From: a virus
DNA: 64,000 bases
IMG/VR virus record: IMGVR_UViG_3300045996_003734
Location: 45,167-109,166 of that record
Reading direction: 5' to 3' (one strand)
Part shown: positions 6,636 to 58,552 of the stretch, piece after piece
How positions within the stretch are numbered: the stretch's first letter is position 1
Layout: each line of letters starts with the position of its first letter
Made by a program: the position numbers and the translations under genes
Notes under the pieces: generated by a model
Told to the model about the DNA's origin: nothing
The model's database searches: none
The model's input: only the letters and a program-made list of their open reading frames with translations

Positions 6636-7232
6636 TCAGGAGTGGAGGAAGCCGCTCTGCTCGAGGTCTGCGAGCGTCTCCTTCGAGACGCGGTACACGA
6701 CCGCCTGCAGCCCGAGCTCCTGCTGAAGCTCGGCCACGTCGTCGTCCGACTTGGTGACGATGAGCACGTCGCCGGCCTTCGCGTGGAGGCGGCCGCCCTT
6801 GCCGACGCCCGCCACACCCGAGGCGATGGTGACGCACTCGTTCAGCTGGCGCGCGTTCTCGGGTAGGCCGGCGATGGCCGTGCCGGCATTCTTGGCAGCC
6901 GTGGTCGCCGCGGCCAGCGCGGCGGTCAGCTCCCCGACCTGCTGCTCGAGCGACTTGCGAGCTCCACGCTCGCGGTCGAGCTCGCCCTGCAAGCCGTTGG
7001 CGCGAGCCTCCGCCTGCGAGAGCTTCACTGCGAGCTCGCCCGTCTTTTGCTCGAGCTTGGCCTCCGCCTGCTGGCGGATGCGGGTCTCGTCGTTCGGGGG
7101 CGGGGCTACGCTCGCGGCCCCTGCGCCGGTCGCGGCCCCGCCCTCGGCAGTCGCGCTCTCGCCCTTCGCCGCGCCGGCACCCGGATCGAGGACCTCGGTA
7201 CCGCCCGCGGCTTGGTTCTTCGCCTTCGACAT
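6636..7232 (-). CDS. Hypothetical capsid-neck protein with coiled coil
   Basis: 198 residues from the ATG at 7232, chosen because GAGAAAG lies 7 nt upstream; an upstream GTG at 7253 is less likely. An Ala/Gly-rich disordered start (~50 residues) precedes a strong coiled coil at about 50-125 (QQAEAKLEQKTGELAVKL, LEQQVGELTAALAAATT), then a C-terminal alpha/beta domain with AKAGDVLIVTKSDDDVAEL and a final helix. It lies between capsid and gp36-like gene. Many phages have an unassigned head protein here. Function unknown. Confidence 0.65.
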   Translation of the reverse strand: MSKAKNQAAGGTEVLDPGAGAAKGESATAEGGAATGAGAASVAPPPNDETRIRQQAEAKLEQKTGELAVKLSQAEARANGLQGELDRERGARKSLEQQVGELTAALAAATTAAKNAGTAIAGLPENARQLNECVTIASGVAGVGKGGRLHAKAGDVLIVTKSDDDVAELQQELGLQAVVYRVSKETLADLEQSGFLHS

Positions 7233-10860: not shown

Positions 10861-13616
10861 CCGGCCCCCAGCATTCGCGCCTGAACCTTTGCCAACTCCT
10901 TAAGCATTTCTTCCTTCTGCTCGGCCGTCAAGCCGAGCTCCCGCACCCACTCCGACACACCCTCCGCCCCGCTACCGCTCGAGCGAAGAAGCGCCGCTCT
11001 TTCGTGCGCTTTCGCCATCAGCTCCAGCGCCTCCTCCGAGCCGATGCCCTTCAGCTTTTGGAGCCGGTACCGGATGGCGTTGATCTCTCCGGAGTACGCC
11101 ATGCCCGCGTCCGAGAGCTTCAGCTTCGGTACCAGCTGGCGCATCACGCGGCGCGCCGTGAGCTCGGTCCCGATCTCCTCGACCACCACGCTGTGCGGGG
11201 TGACGTCGTGGAGGTTGCTGCCCGAGAGGCTGTGCACCTCCTCGTGCACCATGATGCGCAGGCCGTCGAGCTCCTTCCGGATCTCGGGCGTGAGCGTCTT
11301 GATGGGTCCGGAAGAGATGCGCTGCATCGCGCGCCGCGCGCGGTCGACGACGTCGGGCGAGTAGGTGACCTTGGCCGTGCCTGGCTCGAACATCGCCTCG
11401 AAGCCGTGCACCGCCACGTCCTCGCCCGAGACGGTCATGTCGCCGAGCACCGCGTCGCGCGCCTGCGGCACCGTCTCCCGCACCAGGTCGCGGAGCGCAA
11501 GGCGCGCCTCGGCGCCGTTGGCGAGCTGCCCGCTTGCCGTCCGCTCGAGCGCGGCGTTGAAGCGTCCGGGCAGCGCCGCGCGGCGCTCGGCCGTTGCGGC
11601 CTGCTGCATCGCAGCGCGCGCAGCCTCGAGCTTGCGCTGCGCCTCGGCCTCCGCGGCGGCCTTCGCGAAGTGGTCGGCAACCCGGTCCCGCTTCGCCGCG
11701 CTCTTCTTGAAGTACGCCTTGATTTCCTCGTACTTCGGATCCCCCGGGGCGACGTCGGCAGACATCGGGATGAGCCCGCCGTCCCCGTTCCCTCGCGCTC
11801 GCAGGAAGGCCTTGCCGACCTGCTCGCCGTCCACCTCGAGCATCGCCAGGTCGCGCACCCGAGGCAGCGCGTCCACCGCCTCGGCGGGGATGTGCGGGAA
11901 CGCCTTTTTGAACTGGCCCTTGAGGTTCTTGAGCTGGGTTGGGTTCGTGTCGAAGCCAGCGCGCGCCCAGACGTATTGGCCGTCCCACGCGGCCTCGAGC
12001 TTGATCTTTTTGACGCCCAGCTTCTCGTACTGCTCGAGCTGGTTGACGAGGATCCGGCTGCCGATGCCCGAGCCTTGGTGCTCCTTCGCCACCCGCAGGT
12101 AGCCGTGGTGCACCACCATGTCGCCGTTCTTCTCGAGCTTGTAGTCGCGCTGAACGGTGGCGACGTACTTCCCCTCACGGTCGACGATGCGCGCCTTGAG
12201 GTCGATGGCGTTGGACGTCGCGCTGATGCGGAAGTCGTCTAGCCGGTGCCCGTCGTCGAACGTCGCGGGCGAAACGAGGGCTTGGTACTCCTCGGGTGAG
12301 AGCGCCCGGCCAAAGCCCTTCTGGCTGACCGCGTGCAGGTGCTTCAGCTCGCTCGCCTCGAGCTCGATGGCGGCCGCCGTGAATTGGGCGTGGGTCGCTG
12401 GCGCAGCGGCGACCGGCAGCGGCACTGGAGGCAGCCGGATGGGCGGCGCCGGCGGCGCTGTGGACGGCGTGGGCAGCTCGATTGCGGGCGGCGGCACGGG
12501 GCGCGGGGGCGGAGCACGCACCGGCACAGGCGGGCGCTGCGGTGCCGGCGGCGGGGCGAGCGCGGCGGCCGGCACGCTGATGAGCTGGCTGGTGCCGGAC
12601 TCGAAGCCGGGGTCCGGCAAGCCTTTGGGGACCGGGCCCACCTCGATGCCCATGCGCTTGAGCCACGCCAGCGTGCGCGCGATGACGCGGCAGCGGCAGT
12701 TGAAGCCGAAAGGCGGGTAGGCCAGCTTCCAGAACGGGTGATTCGCCGGGAGCACGATGCCGTGCGCGCGCTTGTGCGTCTCGCGCTGGCGCGCGTCGGT
12801 GACGCCTCGGATCTGCCAGTACGGCAGCGCGGCCAGCACGGCGGGTTGGCTCATCTCGGCGCGCCGCCCGCTCGCCACGGCGCTCATGCTGTTCGTGCGG
12901 AAGATGGTCTCGACGTGGCTCGGGTTGTCTGGCGTCCAGCCCGCCGTCTTCAGGCGCTCCTTGGCGAACTTGCGGAAGTCTCGGAGGTTGGCGCCCTTCG
13001 GTGTGCTGCCGGGGGTGCCGGGCCGCCTGCCCTGCCCGTCGCGCAGCTGGCGGACGAGCTCGGCCTTGGTGGCGTTGAGCAGCTCCTCCTTGGCCATGCC
13101 GGCGACGGTGAAGGCCTGCTTCCGCGCACCCTCCTGCATCGCGCGAAACGCCGCCGGCGGCACGACCTTGCGCTGCTCGAACTGCGCGATCGCGGTCTCG
13201 CCCGGGAGGTGCACCAGGCCCGGCCGGCGCCGCACCGCGAACGTTGCCGGCGCCAGCTCCACGTCGTGCTCGCGCTCCCACTGCGAGTCGAGCGCACCGA
13301 GCATCAAGCCCCGCAGAATGGTCTGCTCTATCTCCTTCGCGAACGCGCCCACGTCGATGCGCGCGCGCTCGAGCGCGCTTCGAATTTCGAACTCCGTTTC
13401 GCTGTCGCCGATAGCCTCGAGGACGGCCTCTCCCCAGGCGGCCGTGATCCGAGTTGCCGCAGCCACGCCGTCTTCGACGAGCGCCTCCGGAGAACCGTTC
13501 GGGCTGTCGGGTTGCTCGGCGCAGCAGACGTGCTCGCCCAGCAAGTCCTGAGCGTTGAGCGAGGCGTAGAACCGCTCGAGCTCGAGGAGCTCCGCGCGCG
13601 CCTGCTCCGCGTTCAT
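10857..13616 (-). CDS. Minor head protein (MuF/SPP1 gp7-like) fused to GNAT-like and HExxH metallopeptidase-like domains
   Basis: 919 residues, two to three times the size of a plain MuF protein. Residues ~1-330 are the MuF/SPP1-gp7 head protein: YWQIRGVTDARQRETHKRAHG, then HPFW and PPFGFNCRCRV (Cys near 306). A Pro-rich linker of ~55 residues follows (APPPAPQRPPVPVRAPPPRP). Residues ~440-570 look like a GNAT acetyltransferase, with HQGSGIGSR at ~513-521 as acetyl-CoA loop and an upstream GDMVVHHGYLRV strand. After an Ala/Glu-rich coiled coil, residues 791-795 are HEEVH, an HExxH zinc-protease motif, followed by EEIGTELTARRV that could give the third ligand. MuF proteins enter the capsid, so the added domains may be delivered to the host at infection. 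Confidence 0.8.
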   Translation of the reverse strand: MNAEQARAELLELERFYASLNAQDLLGEHVCCAEQPDSPNGSPEALVEDGVAAATRITAAWGEAVLEAIGDSETEFEIRSALERARIDVGAFAKEIEQTILRGLMLGALDSQWEREHDVELAPATFAVRRRPGLVHLPGETAIAQFEQRKVVPPAAFRAMQEGARKQAFTVAGMAKEELLNATKAELVRQLRDGQGRRPGTPGSTPKGANLRDFRKFAKERLKTAGWTPDNPSHVETIFRTNSMSAVASGRRAEMSQPAVLAALPYWQIRGVTDARQRETHKRAHGIVLPANHPFWKLAYPPFGFNCRCRVIARTLAWLKRMGIEVGPVPKGLPDPGFESGTSQLISVPAAALAPPPAPQRPPVPVRAPPPRPVPPPAIELPTPSTAPPAPPIRLPPVPLPVAAAPATHAQFTAAAIELEASELKHLHAVSQKGFGRALSPEEYQALVSPATFDDGHRLDDFRISATSNAIDLKARIVDREGKYVATVQRDYKLEKNGDMVVHHGYLRVAKEHQGSGIGSRILVNQLEQYEKLGVKKIKLEAAWDGQYVWARAGFDTNPTQLKNLKGQFKKAFPHIPAEAVDALPRVRDLAMLEVDGEQVGKAFLRARGNGDGGLIPMSADVAPGDPKYEEIKAYFKKSAAKRDRVADHFAKAAAEAEAQRKLEAARAAMQQAATAERRAALPGRFNAALERTASGQLANGAEARLALRDLVRETVPQARDAVLGDMTVSGEDVAVHGFEAMFEPGTAKVTYSPDVVDRARRAMQRISSGPIKTLTPEIRKELDGLRIMVHEEVHSLSGSNLHDVTPHSVVVEEIGTELTARRVMRQLVPKLKLSDAGMAYSGEINAIRYRLQKLKGIGSEEALELMAKAHERAALLRSSGSGAEGVSEWVRELGLTAEQKEEMLKELAKVQARMLGAG

Positions 13617-21308: not shown

Positions 21309-22111
21309 CAGGCCGTCGCCCCCAGCTCCAGTTGCTTCTCGTCAGCCCGTAGCGCGCGCGCCTCGATGATTTCGCCGGTGTCGAGCCGGGTGACCTCGAC
21401 CACCCCGAGCTTGTAGTTGGTCTTCTGCTCACACTCGACGGCGCGCTCTTCGATGGCTTGGCCGGAGGCGACCACCAGCCGGATGAACTCCTTTTGGCAT
21501 TCCGCGATTTGCGCGCGCTTTTCGCGCATCAGGTTCTTGAGCTCCGTCTCGAGCCGCTCGCGCTCGAGCAGCTTGCCGGCGGCGGCTTGCGCGGCCTTGT
21601 GGGACTGCTCGGGCGTGAGGGCGCAGGGCAGCGTGCGTTCGATTCGGATCTTCTTGATGGCTTGCTTGGTCACGGCGTCGCTCCTCGCCCAGCAAAGGGC
21701 CTCGTAGGTCAGCAGCCCGGCGTCCTCAGCAGCCGCCAGGGTTTGAATGGTGAAGTTGCGGCTCCAGCCGAGGCGCTTCGAGGCGATGGCCAAGAGCTCG
21801 TCGGGGGAGCTGCACTCGATGACGGCGGCGAGCTGCGAGGCGCGGGGGGCCCAGCAGGGGTCCGCGCAGGCCTCCCTGCCCTTCGTCGGTGCCCGAGGCT
21901 CGGTCGTGAAGTCCTCGTCCGGAGCGTGGTGCCGGAGCCAGTGCAGCGTCGACCGCAGGTCGTCCTCGGTGGCTTCCGGGAACTGGCGGCGTAGCGAGCC
22001 GAACAGGTAGGCCTGGCTCTTCTTGCGCTTCGCCACCTCGCGGATGGTCCCGCCGATGTTTCGAGCCGCCTTGGTGCAGACGTCGAGCGCGAAGTCGCGG
22101 AGAGCCCTCAG
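21308..22111 (-). CDS. Hypothetical protein of replication region, probable CTG start
   Basis: 267 residues if translation starts at CTG 22111. No ATG, GTG or TTG lies near, the CTG overlaps the previous stop (CTGA), and GGAGG sits 5 nt upstream. Residues 1-110 are helical and basic (AARNIGGTIREVAKRKKSQAY) with a winged-helix feel (WSRNFTIQTLAAAEDAGLLTYEAL near 115). Residues 150-220 are a coiled coil (LLERERLETELKNLMREKRAQ). The end is strand-rich. It follows the initiator-like gene and may be a replication accessory factor; no family recognised. Confidence 0.55.
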   Translation of the reverse strand: MRALRDFALDVCTKAARNIGGTIREVAKRKKSQAYLFGSLRRQFPEATEDDLRSTLHWLRHHAPDEDFTTEPRAPTKGREACADPCWAPRASQLAAVIECSSPDELLAIASKRLGWSRNFTIQTLAAAEDAGLLTYEALCWARSDAVTKQAIKKIRIERTLPCALTPEQSHKAAQAAAGKLLERERLETELKNLMREKRAQIAECQKEFIRLVVASGQAIEERAVECEQKTNYKLGVVEVTRLDTGEIIEARALRADEKQLELGATA

Positions 22112-22425
22112 CGGAGCCTCCGCAGGGCGGTCCGGAGTGAGCTGAGGTTGAAGTCGGAGCGCCCCCCGTTCGAGCCGTCCAGGATGTCGAGGGCGAGCTG
22201 CTGAGCCTCCGGGCCATGCTTCCCGTCCAGCGCCGCGTCGGCGAGGTCGAGCAGCTCCTGTCGCTCCTTGCGGAGCTTCTCCCGCTCGACGAGCTCTTGC
22301 TCGCGCTGGATGGCGGCTTGGCGCTCCGGGCTCAGCGTGGCACCCATCGCGCGCTCGACGTGGGCAAGCGCTTCGGCGTCGTAGCCGGCGCGCTTCATTG
22401 CTTCCGCGTTTCGATTCAGGTTCAA
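22108..22425 (-). CDS. Hypothetical coiled-coil protein
   Basis: 105 residues, overlapping the initiator-like gene's stop at its start and the next gene's CTG at its end. Residues ~25-60 are highly charged and helical (RQAAIQREQELVEREKLRKE), a likely coiled coil; the remainder is helical with DLADAALDGKHGPEAQ. Unknown function, probably working with the adjacent replication genes given the tight coupling. Confidence 0.6.
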   Translation of the reverse strand: MNLNRNAEAMKRAGYDAEALAHVERAMGATLSPERQAAIQREQELVEREKLRKERQELLDLADAALDGKHGPEAQQLALDILDGSNGGRSDFNLSSLRTALRRLR

Positions 22426-23552
22426 GATTCACCTACAGCGGCTAGGGTTGGCAGGACGGCACCGAGCAGCGCGGGGCCGCTCTTGGGGCCGCCCGAACGG
22501 TTGGGGTCGGGCTTCAGGCCGCTCTTGGCGCGGGCAATGCGCTCGAGCTGGTGCGGGGAAAGTTGGGTCTCGCGGGCGCCGGCCTGCTCGCGCCGAATGA
22601 CCTCCACGGACAGCGCGCCCAGGCTCCGAGGCTTGCCTCCGTCCGCGCGCCACCACGGCGACTTGGTCACCCCGCGCACGGCGGTCAGCAGCTCGTCGGG
22701 CTCGAAGCCGGCCGCGAGCAGCGCCACGACGGCTCGCACCCCGGAGTCCTTGGCGTACGGCAGCAAGCGCGCCGAGCCGCGCATCCCGTTCGCTTCGTGC
22801 ACGGCCTGCGCAACCGCTTGGACCTCCGGCCAGGTCTCCGGCGTGAGCCACTCGGCCATATGCCGGTTCCGTTCGGTGTACGCGGCTCGAGCGGCGATCG
22901 GCATGCGCATCGCCTCGGCCGGGTTTCGCGGCGTCTCGCCGACGAATGGCTGATCGGCAACCTCGACCGGTGCCGCCGGCGGTGGTGCTTCTTCGCGCGG
23001 TCGCGCGATCTCCGGCACGGCTGGCTTTGTACGGCTAGGCACAGCTGAGCTGGAGTGACCAACCGTGACCGGCTGTGACCGGTCGTGACGTTCGGTCACG
23101 GGCAGTGACTCGGCGTCACGAATCGTGACGGGTTGTGACGAGGTCTCCAGGACCGTGGCCACGACGGCCACCAGCTCGGCCGGCACGCCGGGCATCTCGG
23201 CCGCGCGGAGGGCTGCAGCGCGACGAGCGCGACTCTCGCGCTGGCGCTGCGCGTCGCTCTGCTTCGCCTCCTGCGCCCGAATGAAGTTCGGGACGAAGAG
23301 GACGCCGTCCGTCACCGCGACCACCTTGCGCTCGAGCAGCTTCGCCATGCCCGTGCGCGCGTGCTCGAGCGGGAGGTCGGCGAGAGCGGCTAACGCCTCG
23401 GCCGGCTCGAGGCCTTCGAGGTCCAGGACGCCGGCGCGGTCGACCTCCAAAAGCAGGGCGTGGAGGCACATGCGGCCGTCCCAGCCGAGCAGCTTCGTGG
23501 TGACGGTCTTGCGCGTGTAGACGCGAACGTAGCGTTCGTCTTCGAAGTTCAA
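22422..23552 (-). CDS. Putative replication initiator / replisome organiser
   Basis: About 376 residues from a TTG at 23552 (TTGA overlap with the nuclease stop). The N-terminal ~110 residues look like a phage replication-protein winged helix: ERYVRVYTRKTVTTKLLGWD, LPLEHARTGMAKLLERKVV, VLFVPNFIRAQEAKQSDAQR. A long disordered linker (130-215) coincides with the DNA carrying nine phased GTGAC boxes. The C-terminal part is helical (ANGMRGSARLLPYAKDSGVR) and resembles the helper-binding end of such proteins. Lambda O likewise holds its origin iterons inside its own gene. Function inferred from architecture and context. Confidence 0.55.
   Translation of the reverse strand: MNFEDERYVRVYTRKTVTTKLLGWDGRMCLHALLLEVDRAGVLDLEGLEPAEALAALADLPLEHARTGMAKLLERKVVAVTDGVLFVPNFIRAQEAKQSDAQRQRESRARRAAALRAAEMPGVPAELVAVVATVLETSSQPVTIRDAESLPVTERHDRSQPVTVGHSSSAVPSRTKPAVPEIARPREEAPPPAAPVEVADQPFVGETPRNPAEAMRMPIAARAAYTERNRHMAEWLTPETWPEVQAVAQAVHEANGMRGSARLLPYAKDSGVRAVVALLAAGFEPDELLTAVRGVTKSPWWRADGGKPRSLGALSVEVIRREQAGARETQLSPHQLERIARAKSGLKPDPNRSGGPKSGPALLGAVLPTLAAVGES
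23055..23139. repeat. Nine GTGAC boxes at exact 10-bp spacing (candidate origin iterons)
   Basis: GTGAC occurs at 23055, 23065, 23075, 23085, 23105, 23125 and 23135, and its inverse GTCAC at 23095 and 23115, each exactly 10 bp after the last. The period is not a multiple of three, so it cannot come from a repeated peptide. All boxes face nearly the same side of the helix. The array lies in the linker-coding part of the initiator-like gene, the position of the lambda origin in gene O. Confidence 0.7.
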
Positions 23553-27884: not shown

Positions 27885-28604
27885 CTAGGCCGCCCTCCGC
27901 GCCACGCCCTCGGCTGCCCCACCCCGAGCGGCATCGTCCCAAGCCTGAACGCAATGACGCCGGAGGGCGTCAGATTCAGTGCAGGGGCGCAGCGGGGCAG
28001 GCTGCGGCGCGCAGCGGAATGCCACAGCATCGGGCAAAAAAAAGGGCGCCGCGCGGTCGATTCGAACGACCTCATTCCCCGCTTCACCGGCCGGCATGGC
28101 GGGGACCCGGCTCAACAGACCGGTGACCTTCCCACAGGTCGAGCGCGCGTCTTGTGGTGCTAAGTGCGAGGTGGCCAGTTCCAGCAGCCTGGCTTCGGCG
28201 TCTCGCTGAAGGGAACGTCCGTGTTGAAGAACTGTCCCGTCGGGTTCAGGATGCAAAGGCCCACGCTGTCGTTGGGCCCGAAATTCACCTGCGTCACCAC
28301 CGCCGCTCTCGGCGCCGGCAGGTACTCGCCGCCCGGCGTTCCGTAGCTCTGGTAGTGCACGATCCGTCCCACGCTCGGTTTCTGGTCCATTGGTTTCTCC
28401 GTTCAGCTCGAGCACGCACAGCGCCTCGAGAGCAGTCATGCGGGCGCGGCCGAGCTCGAGGTCACGCAGCGTCCGGACGCCGATGCCGAGCTCGTGGGCG
28501 GCGCGCTCCTGCGACCAGCCGCGGGCAACGCGGGCTCGACGGAGGCGACCGGCAGCCGCCCGCCTCGCCCCACCCCGCAGGGTGAACAGCTTTCCCTCAG
28601 ACAT
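27885..28604 (-). CDS. HTH protein (XRE-like); 3' end of the frame doubtful
   Basis: The ATG at 28604 opens a clear XRE-type helix-turn-helix: RLRRARVARGWSQERAAHELGIG then RTLRDLELGRARMTALEAL, residues ~20-65. That part ends near 28390, where another gene starts. The frame stays open to 27885, but the added ~165 residues overlap a well-formed gene and the tRNA-like element and look like non-coding GC-rich frame. The true protein may be only ~75 residues, ended by a frameshift or error. It would be a regulator of the lysogeny operon. Confidence 0.45.
   Translation of the reverse strand: MSEGKLFTLRGGARRAAAGRLRRARVARGWSQERAAHELGIGVRTLRDLELGRARMTALEALCVLELNGETNGPETERGTDRALPELRNAGRRVPAGAESGGGDAGEFRAQRQRGPLHPEPDGTVLQHGRSLQRDAEARLLELATSHLAPQDARSTCGKVTGLLSRVPAMPAGEAGNEVVRIDRAAPFFLPDAVAFRCAPQPAPLRPCTESDALRRHCVQAWDDAARGGAAEGVARRAA
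28047..28149 (-). tRNA. tRNA-like gene, anticodon GTT (Asn-like), long variable arm
   Basis: Read on the minus strand: a D-arm GACC/GGTC with loop TGTGGGAA, an anticodon stem CCGGT/GCCGG with loop CTGTTGA (T33, anticodon GTT), and a perfect 5-bp T-stem GGTCG/CGACC with loop TTCGAAT. The 35-nt variable region holds a 7-bp stem, TCCCCGC/GCGGGGA. Only 5 of 7 acceptor pairs form and the 3' end reads CCC. Eight Ts follow, like a terminator. It occupies the gap between 28160 and the next downstream genes, 1.2 kb from the integrase. It may be a phage tRNA, a decayed tRNA, or attP carrying part of a host tRNA. Confidence 0.45.
28160..28390 (-). CDS. Small conserved phage protein (IVHYxSYG family)
   Basis: 76 residues beginning MDQKPSVGRIVHYQSYGTPG. 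The layout RIVHY.S.GTPGGEY...RAAVVTEV...VGLCILNPTGQFFN...W.WP is one I have seen in many small phage proteins of unknown function; it folds as a small beta barrel by appearance. The ATG lies inside the open frame of the HTH gene. Function unknown. Confidence 0.7.
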   Translation of the reverse strand: MDQKPSVGRIVHYQSYGTPGGEYLPAPRAAVVTQVNFGPNDSVGLCILNPTGQFFNTDVPFSETPKPGCWNWPPRT

Positions 28605-28914
28605 GGTCACCTTGAAGCAAGCGCTCGCGGACGTGCTCGACCGCTGCCGCGAAGCGCTCGTCCTGGAGCCGAGCCCGAGCGGCGCGCAGCAGGGCGGTAG
28701 CCGCCCCGCCCGTCCGACCGAGGGCCACGGCCACCTCGGCATCGCTCATGACGGTGTGGTCGTGGAGCAGCAGAGCGGCGACGTGGCGAGCGAAGCCGAG
28801 GCTCCGGGCGATGCGAGGGCCGCGGAGGTCGACGACGGCGATCCCGAAGTGCTCAGCAGCCCGCTCGATGATGAGCGGAGCCGGGAGCAGACGGAGGGCT
28901 GGTGCGGCTCCCAT
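28597..28914 (-). CDS. DnaA domain IV-like DNA-binding protein
   Basis: 105 residues resembling the C-terminal DNA-binding domain of DnaA without its ATPase: LIIERAAEHFGIAVVDLRGP is the first helix region, SLGFARHVAALLLHDHT the second, and MSDAEVAVALGRTGGAATALLRAARARL matches the basic-loop/HTH signature region, though with few basic residues. Standalone DnaA-C proteins in phages could bind DnaA boxes or compete with host DnaA. The stop overlaps the start of the HTH gene. Confidence 0.6.
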   Translation of the reverse strand: MGAAPALRLLPAPLIIERAAEHFGIAVVDLRGPRIARSLGFARHVAALLLHDHTVMSDAEVAVALGRTGGAATALLRAARARLQDERFAAAVEHVRERLLQGDHV

Positions 28915-39601: not shown

Positions 39602-39829
39602 ATGCCCGACGAAACCGAGACTGACGAGACGAGAGGAACGACCGTGATGCACAAGGAAACCGGAGCCGTGGCCACGTTCGAGACGAAGACCGATGCGGAC
39701 GCCGCCGGCTACACCGTGCCGCTCTCGCAGGACCAATACGACATGGCCCTGCACATGAACCGCAAGCAGCGCCGCGCGTGGGCGGCGCAGCAGCGGGGCG
39801 CGAAGAAGCCGAAAGCGGTGGCGTCTTGA
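39602..39829 (+). CDS. Small hypothetical protein
   Basis: 75 residues from ATG 39602. The start is acidic (MPDETETDETRGTT), the middle has YDMALHMNRKQRRAW and the end is basic. MNRKQRR motifs also occur at the start or end of other phage small proteins, but I cannot name a family. Confidence 0.5.
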   Translation: MPDETETDETRGTTVMHKETGAVATFETKTDADAAGYTVPLSQDQYDMALHMNRKQRRAWAAQQRGAKKPKAVAS

Positions 39830-41604
39830 GCTCGGCTCTGGCCGTTTCCGAGGCCGTCGTCGACTACCCCCTGGCCGCAATTCTCGACCCGACGATCAAA
39901 AACTACCGCACCAACTTCCGCGGCATCGAAGAGCTGGAGGCCTCCGTCCGAGAGTCGGGCATTCGGGTGCCGCTCGTGCTCCGCCCCTCCCCCCTCACGC
40001 CCGACGCGCACGAGCTCGCAATCGGCGCGCGCCGACGCGAGGCTGCCCGACGAGCGGGCCTCGAGACGGTGCCCGTCATCATCCGCGAGCTCACGGACGA
40101 GGAGGTGCACACCGAACGCGCGATAGAGAACCTGCAGCGCGTTGACCCCGACCCCTTGGACGAGGCCGACGGCTTCGCTGCGATGGTCAAGCTCGGTTGG
40201 TCGGAGGGGTTGATCGCGACCCGGCTCGGCAAGCCGACTCGCTACGTGGTCGAGCGCCTCGCGCTCTGTAACCTCTGCGAGGAGGGCCGCAAGGCACTCA
40301 CCGAGGGGCACATGCTGGTGGGCGTCGCCATCGAGGTCGCCAAGCTCGCGCCGTCGCTGCAGCCCGAAGCGGTGAAGGAGGTCGGCTCGCACTGGGCAGG
40401 CAGCCTCTACACCGTCGCCGACGCTCGAGACGCCATCAGCAAGCGCATCATGCTTCGGCTCGACCGAGCCCCGTTCGCGCTCGACGACCCAGCACTGGTC
40501 CCCGAGGTGGGCCCCTGCACCACCTGCCGGAAGCGCACGGGCACCCAGGCGGAGCTGTTCGCCGGCTTCGATGCGGACCTCTGCACCGACAGCGCCTGCC
40601 ACAAGGGCAAGCTGGATGCGCTCTGGAAGCTCCGCGTGAAGACCGCCAAGGCCGACGGCGTCACGGTGCTGAGCAAGAAGGACGGGGCGGAGGCGCTCAA
40701 GAGCGCGCGCGCCAACTACGGCTCGGGAGCTTTCGTGCGCCTCGACGAAGAGGTGTACCTCGGAGCCAAGAGGCCCAAGTCCCTCAAGGCAGCGTTCGGG
40801 AAGGAGCTGCCGCCCGTCACGCTCGCTCGCGACGAGGACAGCGGGACACCGGTGGAGCTCGTGCCCCGCAAAGCTGTGGAGGCGCTCCTGAAGGCGCACA
40901 GCCCTGCGCGGGGCGGCACGGACCAGTCACCCAAGGCCGACGCGAAAGCCAAAGCCGAGCGCGAGGCCGAGCGCGTCAAAGCCGAGGTAAACCGCCGCGC
41001 GATGACCGCGATCGTGGAGGCTGCCGACGCCGCCACCCGCAAGGGTAAGGCGCCCCGCGCGCTGCTCCGCCTGGCCGTCCGTGGCGCCCTGGACTCGGTC
41101 TGGACGGACGTCACCAAGAAGGTGGCCGACCGCCGAGGTCTGCCGCTCACCGACGAAGCGCAGGGCACCACCAGGAAAGGGGCGAAGCGCCAGCTCGAGC
41201 GCCTAACTCCAGCCGTGCGCATCGAGCGGCTGCTGGAGACGCTCGATGAGGGAGCGCTGTTCGCCCTGCTGCTCGAGCTCGCGATGGGCCGCTCCGTGCC
41301 GGGCAAGTGGAGCGAGGGGTCGGACTGCTACGTCGACCTCTGCGCGGAGCTGGGTGTCGACACGAAGGCTCTCGAGAAAGCCGTGAAGGCGGAGCGGAAA
41401 GAGAAGGCGCAGGCCAAGACCCCTCCCCGCCCGGAGCACCCCGCCACCGGGCAGGTGGTCCACTACATCGACCCCACCGGCCTCAGAAAGACGGGCGTGG
41501 CTTGCGGCGGCAAGGTCGGAGACGGCAAGGGTATCGTTACCGACGACGCCGCGAGGGTCACCTGCAAGAGCTGCGGGCGGACCGCCCGCCTCGAGATCGA
41601 CTAG
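39826..41604 (+). CDS. ParB-like protein with C-terminal zinc ribbon
   Basis: 592 residues from a TTG at 39826 that overlaps the upstream stop. The N-terminal ~105 residues are a ParB/Srx domain: GIRVPLVLRP, then GARRREAARRAGLETVPVII and ERAIENLQRVDP. An HTH-like region follows (GLIATRLGKPTRYVVERLAL). A Cys cluster CTTCRKR...C...C lies near 225-265, and the C-terminus has a zinc ribbon (CGGKV...CKSCGR). ParB-like phage proteins of this size may be CTP-dependent DNA-binding or nuclease-type proteins; segregation partner ParA is absent from the window. Confidence 0.7.
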   Translation: MSSALAVSEAVVDYPLAAILDPTIKNYRTNFRGIEELEASVRESGIRVPLVLRPSPLTPDAHELAIGARRREAARRAGLETVPVIIRELTDEEVHTERAIENLQRVDPDPLDEADGFAAMVKLGWSEGLIATRLGKPTRYVVERLALCNLCEEGRKALTEGHMLVGVAIEVAKLAPSLQPEAVKEVGSHWAGSLYTVADARDAISKRIMLRLDRAPFALDDPALVPEVGPCTTCRKRTGTQAELFAGFDADLCTDSACHKGKLDALWKLRVKTAKADGVTVLSKKDGAEALKSARANYGSGAFVRLDEEVYLGAKRPKSLKAAFGKELPPVTLARDEDSGTPVELVPRKAVEALLKAHSPARGGTDQSPKADAKAKAEREAERVKAEVNRRAMTAIVEAADAATRKGKAPRALLRLAVRGALDSVWTDVTKKVADRRGLPLTDEAQGTTRKGAKRQLERLTPAVRIERLLETLDEGALFALLLELAMGRSVPGKWSEGSDCYVDLCAELGVDTKALEKAVKAERKEKAQAKTPPRPEHPATGQVVHYIDPTGLRKTGVACGGKVGDGKGIVTDDAARVTCKSCGRTARLEID

Positions 41605-44493: not shown

Positions 44494-46505
44494 CAGAGCG
44501 CCTCGCTGCGAGCGAGCACGTCCCCAAGGACGACGGTCTCGAACGACAGACCACGAATGACACTGGGGAGCGTCGTGGCAGTCGCAAACAGCTGGACGGC
44601 CGCGACACCATCGATCACCTGCAGAGCGCGCCCCACGCCGATCGCAGAGACGTAGCCGAAGCTGACGCCCGTCCCGTTGCCGAAGCCGAGGTTGACCGAG
44701 GTTCCCACACCGAGGCCGAGCCCAGCGAACGCCGCGAGACCTACCCCCGCCACGGTGGCGCCGCCGACGGCTACAGCGACGCCTCCCAGAGCTCCCACAG
44801 CAGGCGCCGACGCGATCGTGAGCCCATTTCCTGGCGCGACGGCACCCGAGTGAGCTGCGCCAACACCGGCCACGCTCTGCAGCGCCCAGGGAATGGCGAC
44901 GACAACGGCTGCGCCGGCAGCAACACCCGGGGCGCGCTGCGTCATTCGACCATCGGCGACGCCGACAGTCTGCCCGAGTCCCACGCCCGCGGCGGTGGCG
45001 AGGGCCACGCCGTTGCCTGGGGCCGCGGCCGCGCTCCCGCCGGCCATCACGCCCGTCTGCTGCTCGAGCATCCGAGCCACCGCGGCAGCGACGACCGAGC
45101 CCACGGCCACCCCAAGTGCGCGCTGAGTGGTCGCGCCGGCCGCGACGGCAAAGGCGCTCCCACCGACCGCGACGCCGTCCGCCAGCACGGTGCTCTGGGC
45201 TAAGGACGAACCGATGCCGCTCGCCCCGCCGGCAACGAAGCCGACGCCCGAGCACACCTCTCGAGAGGCACCCACGGCCACGCACGCAACGGCGCCCACG
45301 CCGACGCGGGCCTGAATGTCGCGGCCCACCCCAACGCCCAGAGCGGCGGTGAGCGCCGCGCCCGGAGCAGATTGAACCGCCACCGGGGCACCCACCGCCA
45401 CCAGCGCGGCAGGACCGACGCCGGCGGTGCGCTGCAGCGCCGAGCCGGCGCCGATGACCATGAAACCGCCCACGCCCACACCCGTGCCGCTCGCGACGAC
45501 AGGGGAGGAAGCGGAGGCGAAGAACGCAGCCGACCCGCGCCGAGCCGTCGTGGTGAACGTCTCAATCGGGCGCTCGTCCGTCGCCTGATACAGGCCCAGC
45601 ACGTCGTTGACGGCAGCGGGAGTACCAGCGAAGAACGTGCGCGGACGGCGCGCTTGCTCGTTCGTAGCGAGCCACTCTTGGTTGAAGACTCGCCGCCGCA
45701 AGGCGAAGAATGGAATCGCAGCGGCCACCACGGCGAACGCGAACGGTCGCCTCAGTGTCGTCGTGAACGTCTCGATCGGGCGCCCGTCCACGAGCTCGCG
45801 CTTGACCGAGGCTGTGTAGTCCGGCGTCCCGCCGCCGCCACCGCCGCCGCCGTCGTGGGACACGAGCAGCATGCCCCACTGCGCGGCGCCGCCGATGCCC
45901 CAGGTCACCGCCTGCGCACCAGCGGTGCCCGCGAGGCGCCAGACAGCACCCCCGTACTCGAAGGCACCAGACGCCACGCTGAACTCCGTCGTCCAGCCAG
46001 GGCTCGGAGGGGTGTGCACGGGGCTACCACCGTCGGCGTACACGTAAACCGACGTGATCTCGTCGCCCACTTGCGTCAGCGCGTCCGTCGTCGCCGTCGG
46101 AGCGTTCGTGTTCCCCGACGCCGTGACCGGGGTCCCGCGCACCGCGCCTGCGCCAGAAATCTCGACGATCGCTCCCGTCGTGTAGTGGCCGTCCGGGGTC
46201 CCCACTCCGCTGTATGTAATGGTGACCGTGTGAGCGGCGCCCGGCGGCACCACGGCTTCCCAAAGCTCAGCCTGGTTCAGGTTGTTGGGCGACTGGGTGC
46301 AGCGGCCCACCATCGTCGCTGCTGCACCGTTGATCGTGACCGCGCTGACGAGATGCGTCTGGACCGACGAGTAGTGGACCAGCAGGACGCGAACGGTGTT
46401 GCCCGGAGTGAAGTCCGACAGCGTGTTCGCGATTGTGTGCGGGCCAACCGTCGTGACGCCCGAGTGAGGCGCTGCGATGGCTTGGCCTTGGACGCGGGTT
46501 GCCAT
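44493..46505 (-). CDS. Tail fibre/adhesin with long Gly-Val-Ala repeat region
   Basis: 670 residues. The first ~225 form a strand-rich, Ig- or carbohydrate-binding-like domain (VRVLLVHYSSVQTHLVSAV, AAHTVTITYSGVG, WTTEFSVASGAFEYGGAVW), ending in an eight-glycine spacer. Residues ~320-650 are a degenerate repeat of about 20-24 residues built on GVGVG..A.A.GA/..Q...G, such as GVGAVACVAVGASREV and VAVGGSAFAVAAGATTQ. No catalytic motif. It would be a fibre whose repeated shaft carries a C-terminal tip; the composition is extremely hydrophobic for a soluble protein. Confidence 0.6.
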   Translation of the reverse strand: MATRVQGQAIAAPHSGVTTVGPHTIANTLSDFTPGNTVRVLLVHYSSVQTHLVSAVTINGAAATMVGRCTQSPNNLNQAELWEAVVPPGAAHTVTITYSGVGTPDGHYTTGAIVEISGAGAVRGTPVTASGNTNAPTATTDALTQVGDEITSVYVYADGGSPVHTPPSPGWTTEFSVASGAFEYGGAVWRLAGTAGAQAVTWGIGGAAQWGMLLVSHDGGGGGGGGTPDYTASVKRELVDGRPIETFTTTLRRPFAFAVVAAAIPFFALRRRVFNQEWLATNEQARRPRTFFAGTPAAVNDVLGLYQATDERPIETFTTTARRGSAAFFASASSPVVASGTGVGVGGFMVIGAGSALQRTAGVGPAALVAVGAPVAVQSAPGAALTAALGVGVGRDIQARVGVGAVACVAVGASREVCSGVGFVAGGASGIGSSLAQSTVLADGVAVGGSAFAVAAGATTQRALGVAVGSVVAAAVARMLEQQTGVMAGGSAAAAPGNGVALATAAGVGLGQTVGVADGRMTQRAPGVAAGAAVVVAIPWALQSVAGVGAAHSGAVAPGNGLTIASAPAVGALGGVAVAVGGATVAGVGLAAFAGLGLGVGTSVNLGFGNGTGVSFGYVSAIGVGRALQVIDGVAAVQLFATATTLPSVIRGLSFETVVLGDVLARSEAL

Positions 46506-58238: not shown

Positions 58239-58552
58239 GGATCGAGTGGACAGAACAGCGCGGGCAGTCCGGGCAACGACGGCAGCGACGGCACCGCGAG
58301 CCCGGGCAACCCGAACCCCGGCAGCGGCAGCGAGGGCAGGCCCGGGAGCGACGGGAGAGCCGGCAGCCCCGGGAGCGCCGGAAGGCTCGGCACGGCCAGC
58401 GAGGGCAGCGCGAATCCCGGCAGCGGCAGCGCGGGGAGCCCGGGCAGGGGCGGGAGCGCCGGCAGGCCCGGCAGCACTGGCAACACTGGCAGCGCGAGCC
58501 CCGGCAGGCCGAACCCCGGCAGCGGCAGCGGCGGGAAAGCGCAGCGGCTCAC
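58235..58552 (-). CDS. Leu-Pro repeat protein in baseplate operon
   Basis: 105 residues, nearly all of them repeats of LPGLP, LPALP, LPSLP and LPGFGLPGLA. Starts at GTG 58552 overlapping the previous stop (GTGA), the same coupling used elsewhere in this operon, which argues that it is translated. The opposite strand reads as Gly-Ser-Pro triplets. Poly(Leu-Pro) would form an extended polyproline-like helix or a membrane-active rod. Unusual and possibly spurious GC-rich frame. Confidence 0.45.
   Translation of the reverse strand: MSRCAFPPLPLPGFGLPGLALPVLPVLPGLPALPPLPGLPALPLPGFALPSLAVPSLPALPGLPALPSLPGLPSLPLPGFGLPGLAVPSLPSLPGLPALFCPLDP

Follow-up and report, generated by a model that had tools for sequence, protein, structure and literature searches.

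Nine phased GTSAC boxes within a prophage initiator-like gene as a candidate intragenic replication origin

Some phages carry their replication origin inside the gene of the protein that initiates at it. In lambda and the Stx phages, iterons (four in lambda, six in Stx) and an AT-rich tract lie in the middle of gene O (PMC7466680), which bears out the precedent that the earlier note on this DNA had given for lambda. In phage SPP1, the origin oriL is located in gene 38, where direct repeats are bound by gp38 and accompanied by an AT-rich unwinding element (PMC6316719). In mycobacteriophages with repA, the origin has been placed within or beside this gene, and the nearby intergenic regions that were examined reportedly contained no repeats (PMC7157519). 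Outside phages, winged-helix plasmid Rep proteins bind iterons and are affected in their binding by a half-helical-turn insertion between them, and the DnaA-trio motifs, which adjoin the DnaA box nearest the unwinding element, offer a precedent for a short-repeat tract in strand opening (PMC10797057). For most phages known from sequence only, the origins are unmapped.

Here we describe a locus of this kind in a stretch of 64,000 nucleotides (the window), which comprises positions 45,167 to 109,166 of the 109,166-bp IMG/VR virus record IMGVR_UViG_3300045996_003734; coordinates refer to the window except where the record is named. At 23055..23139 (minus strand) of the window, nine GTSAC boxes form an array with a constant step of exactly 10 bp; according to direct reading, scans and the comparison of relatives, they are candidate initiator-binding sites. 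On the plus strand, GTGAC starts at 23055, 23065, 23075, 23085, 23105, 23125 and 23135 and GTCAC at 23095 and 23115, which confirms exactly the earlier count of seven GTGAC and two GTCAC boxes with starts 10 bp apart. In the sense of the gene, which lies on the minus strand, the array comprises seven GTCAC and two GTGAC boxes with the central bases CCGCGCCCC (C C G C G C C C C). Because GTSAC is palindromic save for its centre, the “orientation” of a box is a matter of the central base alone.

The array is exceptional in its surroundings. The window holds 160 GTSAC pentamers in total, a density from which about 2e-19 runs of nine are predicted, and the other GTSAC runs of the window reach two boxes at most at spacings of 7–13 bp. 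Codon shuffles of the gene (5,000) never gave a run of more than two, and the three-box pattern was found at the array locus and nowhere else in the record. When the complete record was scanned without bias for XX-N(0-2)-YY motifs of any kind with at least five copies at exactly 10 or 11 bp, only two loci emerged, namely this array (9 × GTNAC at 10 bp) and a TCNNGA array described below; on 20 local codon-block shuffles the scan yielded zero loci. The boxes occupy all three codon frames, 10 not being a multiple of 3, and encode a non-repetitive linker peptide (SSQPVTIRDAESLPVTERHDRSQPVTVGHS); together with the shuffles, this sustains the view that the array exists at the level of DNA and is not a peptide repeat. 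The idea that all boxes sit on one helical face holds approximately, but a helical repeat of 10.5 bp makes steps of exactly 10 bp drift by about 4 bp over the array, so that the sites would follow a slow spiral or the bound DNA would be slightly overwound. The minimum of the cumulative GC skew, proposed beforehand as a check at 23.1 kb, was found at the window's end instead, and skew therefore lends the origin reading no support.

The array lies about 410 bp inside a replication-initiator (replisome-organiser-like) gene at 22422..23552 (minus strand). Its probable start is a TTG at 23552, which is supported by the family and whose TTGA overlaps the stop of an upstream VRR-NUC-like gene; from this start, the protein has 376 rather than 405 amino acids. 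The segment 23196..23552 (minus strand) encodes the putative box-reading domain at the N-terminus, which is predicted to form a winged helix and to continue in a long basic helix. AlphaFold2 modelled it with a mean pLDDT of 83.6 and the order H-H-E-H-H-E-E-H-H, and its nearest viral folds include replisome organisers. In the PDB, the initiator had no sequence match and weak fold matches, none of them convincing. Taken alone, the window protein matched no PHROG and no Pfam family at the thresholds used: its N-terminal domain aligned with Phage_rep_org_N (PF09681) at E 0.014, below the cut-off, and it did not match the Phage_rep_O domain (PF04492) and is not a lambda O homologue. Among the 32 family members considered below, 13 match Phage_rep_org_N (best 2e-6).

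The gene neighbourhood in relatives points in the same direction. By coordinates, a DnaB gene follows on the same strand about 2 kb or less downstream in 15 of the 26 relatives' records, and six records contain an IstB/DnaC-like ATPase, which in five lies between the initiator and DnaB. Neither a DnaB nor a DnaC/IstB-like gene was found in the 109-kb record analysed here, and a host helicase would thus be needed. The earlier description of the gene as replication-initiator-like gains from the winged-helix model, the replisome-organiser folds, the downstream DnaB of relatives and the synteny with a RepA-like initiator in a sibling prophage (see below); these signs, indirect but consistent, indicate that the array-bearing gene encodes a DNA-binding replication initiator.

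Relatives were collected without reference to the array, five by a protein search and then 37 loci by an alignment search with the N-terminal domain, and phasing was counted in 32 non-redundant genes including that of the window. The same array, which the earlier note had suggested seeking in related phages, recurs as box pairs at 10 or 11 bp in 31 of the 32 genes, and the sole exception (L156) retains one box pair at 20 bp. In total, 146 GTNAC pairs at 10 or 11 bp were counted where codon shuffles predict 0.35 (at most 2 in any of 500), with pair distances peaking at 10, 20/21, 30/31 and 40/41 bp. Arrays contain up to 10 boxes, several relatives mix 10- and 11-bp steps, and some members, among them L136 and L144, carry A/T in place of the central C/G or alternate between 10 and 11 bp. 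When 31 relatives' loci were scanned without a preset motif, all phased runs (66/66) fell within the 600-bp linker stretch, which represents 11% of the DNA. The linker peptide varies among the relatives while the 10/11-bp phasing stays. A conserved linker with lost phasing had been named beforehand as the refuting case; the outcome was the opposite, with relatives losing the peptide and keeping the phasing. The family had no match in annotated phages and plasmids and none in genome_contigs. As a separate observation, the initiator genes of L146, L148 and L154 carry an insert of about 80 amino acids between N-terminal domain and array that looks GIY-YIG/T5orf172-like by eye.

The array is polar and is followed by a second repeat. 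Its last box in the coding direction, GTCAC-TC at 23053..23059 (minus strand), was recognised by comparing terminal boxes across the family: TC comes next in 28 of 30 and CC in the other two, and the central base is C in 25 of 30. Directly adjacent, at 23013..23052 (minus strand), lies a 5-bp repeat tract of 65% GC, a putative unwinding or single-strand element delineated by the lag-5 periodicity of the family. In the window, its units read CAGCT CAGCT GTGCC TAGCC GTACA AAGCC AGCCG TGCCG, and across the family (30 genes) units such as CTAGC, TGTGC, CGTGC and TGTAC occur. Lag-5 identity of the family tracts is 0.50 compared to 0.27 in codon shuffles (maximum 0.30 of 300), with periodicity peaks at lags 5, 10, 15 and 20. 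No AT-rich unwinding element was found beside the array: taken in 40-bp segments, the DNA between about 110 bp ahead of it and 300 bp past it has 62–83% GC, and the place of an AT-rich tract next to the repeats is taken by the 5-bp tract.

Phased boxes are not confined to this family. Four GTSAC boxes at exact 10 bp occur in at least 120 stretches of viral_contigs, and among the 61 non-redundant ORFs of at least 100 amino acids taken from the matches listed, the commonest PHROGs are replication initiation proteins, DnaD-like loaders, primosomal proteins and replisome organisers. GTWAC at 10/11/10 bp showed the same enrichment in initiator-type genes. As controls in all viral_contigs, GTSAC at 13 bp gave 36 matches and GASTC at 10 bp gave 26, and those control arrays that lie inside real ORFs are partly in replication initiators too, which makes GTNAC one of several box codes. 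A 12-bp spacing proved unsuitable as a control, as it is a multiple of 3 and 67 of 120 matches had near-identical spacers; these matches were mostly in-frame peptide repeats (e.g. GNVT), and they also revealed PF04492 O proteins with GTSAC boxes. Judging from these scans, genes for phage initiators seem to have arrays of short phased motifs as a general trait, and GTNAC is one code that is common among them.

This distribution bears on the strongest of the alternatives, that the array is an operator through which the protein represses or times transcription of its own gene while the origin lies elsewhere. Autoregulation is conceivable for a DNA-binding protein whose sites lie in the gene that encodes it, and so is a double role. 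However, an operator needs neither a position about 410 bp into the gene, nor up to 10 boxes as in the relatives, nor polarity, nor coupling to a 5-bp tract; the array is the sole GTSAC array in the record, and phased arrays concentrate in replication initiators and not in regulators. We therefore consider an operator without origin function improbable.

The sequence of the boxes tracks the type of initiator: GTSAC in the gene described here, TCNNGA in its sibling, GGAACC in r1t and CAACCAA-like boxes in Tuc2009. In E. coli K-12 Rac ydaU, we found no GTNAC array but a different motif, the linker (L310 4620-5477) containing TGTTCAAAC/GTTTGAAC boxes and ACAGATAAAGAT repeats; the Rac prophage carries an origin, oriJ (PMC3945230). 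No phased run was found in TP901-1 rep. Two further observations concern initiator genes. In L311, L313 and the enterobacterial “primosomal protein I / replication protein O” loci, a gene has two GTCAC arrays: one lies inside the sequence coding for the N-terminal domain, whereas the other occupies the linker and has ACAGAT/AAAGAT-type repeats after it. In the distant initiator genes L153, L156, L162, L313 and K-12 Rac ydaU, a CCCCC..TTACCCCCC..GGGGG-like element comes after the short repeats. Similar GTNAC boxes accompanying several initiator families might suggest that a shared host factor, or else a phage repressor, reads the boxes during replication instead of the initiator, but the change of box sequence with initiator type argues against another reader, and we regard this explanation as quite unlikely.

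The record itself provides an internal comparison, as it contains two related prophages in tandem (record 1-45166 and window 17000-62300) that share many blocks at 72–93% identity and differ at the initiator, the integrase and some other segments. The segment comprising initiator and array (22102..23548, minus strand) is non-homologous between the siblings while its flanks align at 79–91%; its counterpart in the left prophage is the non-homologous record segment 5829-7566, and one break of the alignment falls exactly at the start of the initiator. The left initiator has a different N-terminus, RIRTVKPEWLEDE..., which resembles mycobacteriophage “RepA-like replication initiator” genes at about 38% identity. 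It too contains an array in its own linker, consisting of five exact TCNNGA boxes (TCCGGA/TCGCGA) at 11 bp from record position 7119 and one degenerate sixth, followed by a 7-bp tandem repeat. Since the sibling has, at the corresponding position, a non-homologous initiator and a phased array that belongs to it, initiator and internal array look like a swappable cassette, and different initiators, each with an array, in otherwise similar prophages are as expected of a functional initiator–array pair.

The siblings also weigh on the proposal of a partition centromere of the parC/parS kind, at which a ParR/ParB-type protein would bind. Centromeres bound by ParR consist of repeats phased at about 10 bp that are bound on one face of the DNA, a spacing that the present array resembles, and a ParB-domain protein is encoded in the window at 39778-41604 (plus strand). 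Yet the siblings' ParB regions align at 82% while the initiator regions and arrays differ, so that the type of array follows the initiator and not ParB; moreover, the array accompanies initiator genes in dozens of phages, and the element carries an integrase. A centromere is accordingly very unlikely. Low complexity, a peptide repeat or chance, for which the poor conservation of the linker might speak, is ruled out for practical purposes by the occupied frames, the failing shuffles and the unrepeated peptide.

Two other features are shared by the siblings. A 105-amino-acid protein at 28597-28914 (minus strand) matches a DnaA domain-IV-like profile (Bac_DnaA_C) near the cut-off, has a close copy in the sibling (record 12007-12165, minus strand) and was not found in the 26 relatives' records; it could compete with or recruit host DnaA. 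At 58326 and 58425, six to seven GGNAG motifs follow one another every 9 bp, as they do in the copy of the sibling, and probably reflect a coding repeat, as 9 is a multiple of 3.

Repeated short sites within an initiator gene, as looked for in an intragenic origin, are present at this locus, and the earlier reading of the array as a phage origin or initiator-binding array appears best supported, the phasing being kept in relatives where the peptide is lost. We assign a probability of about 0.86 to the array being an intragenic replication origin or initiator-binding array of the lambda-O / SPP1-gene-38 type that lacks an AT-rich tract. What the sequences display directly is the array with its phasing, uniqueness, linker position and polarity, the pentamer tract, conservation that does not depend on the peptide, the exchange of the cassette and the genes that surround the initiator in relatives. 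In the mechanism that we propose, every turn of the helix would present one near-palindromic GTSAC box for binding by the N-terminal winged-helix domain, and the initiator would line up as an oligomer along one face towards the terminal GTCAC-TC box. The oligomer might then open the neighbouring 5-bp repeat tract or capture it as a single strand, and the C-terminal part of the initiator would recruit the replicative helicase, that of the host here and a phage-encoded one in many relatives, with origin activity as the presumed result.

More tentatively, these elements may represent a general grammar of temperate phages, in which a winged-helix initiator reads near-palindromic boxes, one per turn, in its own linker DNA, with a polar end box and tandem repeats of 5 to 8 bp that replace the AT-rich tract in strand opening; as one mobile cassette, it would give related prophages in one cell separate origins. 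We think this generalisation somewhat less probable than its contrary. The surveys do support a grammar of boxes plus short repeats shared across seemingly unrelated initiator families, the role of the tandem repeats as strand-opening site being a proposal. In practice, boxes at 10–11 bp with short tandem repeats in the linker of a winged-helix gene would point to candidate origin and initiator together, and this signature is usable for genes that lack a Pfam or PHROG assignment. It becomes testable how the strands part at a GC-rich origin that has no AT-rich tract, and the tandem siblings offer a natural test of whether the joint change of box code and initiator separates the replication of two prophages.

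Compared to known systems, the locus resembles lambda and the Stx phages in having putative binding iterons for its initiator midway along the initiator's own gene, and some PF04492 O proteins even have GTSAC boxes, at 12 bp. In contrast, the window protein falls outside PF04492, and its gene has nine 5-bp boxes at 10 bp, GC-rich DNA and a pentamer tract. With SPP1 it shares repeats inside a replisome-organiser gene, which in SPP1 are bound by the gene's product gp38; SPP1, however, has a loader and a helicase of its own, an AT-rich element and a further origin, oriR, whereas the present record has one GTSAC array and no helicase that we could find. As there is no AT-rich tract, we class the element neither as lambda- nor as SPP1-type but as a variant that probably works like one.

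The same layout is seen in two genes whose sequences we read directly. In r1t orf11, TC and then AGATA/AGAAT-type pentamers come after four GGAACC boxes spaced at 11 bp, and in Tuc2009 rep, which bears the annotation “contains origin of replication”, AGGAT/AGTAT pentamers come after CAACCAA-type boxes with 11-bp spacing. Both differ from the window's gene in box sequence, in having fewer boxes, in AT-rich DNA and in their Firmicute hosts, and the likeness is one of layout. Staphylococcus phage phi11 orf15 and Phage_rep_org_N / DnaD-like initiators have GTNAC at 10–11 bp in the linker after the N-terminal domain; phi11 orf15 (GTAAC/GTTAC) and the GTWAC initiators differ in a central A/T rather than C/G and in belonging to another host group. 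The mycobacteriophage RepA-like initiators are kin of the sibling prophage's initiator and not of the window's gene. One of them, Mycobacterium phage Phayonce gene 66 (L479 1498-2379), contains TCGCGA boxes about 10–11 bp apart and then four 8-bp tandem repeats, GGAACAGG, and is itself a candidate intragenic origin, in a phage group that is already characterised. The open-access literature that we searched did not mention the GTNAC / pentamer layout. Origins within initiator genes are known already, from lambda and SPP1; what sets the present element apart is the combination of helically spaced 5-bp boxes with a pentamer tract in GC-rich DNA.
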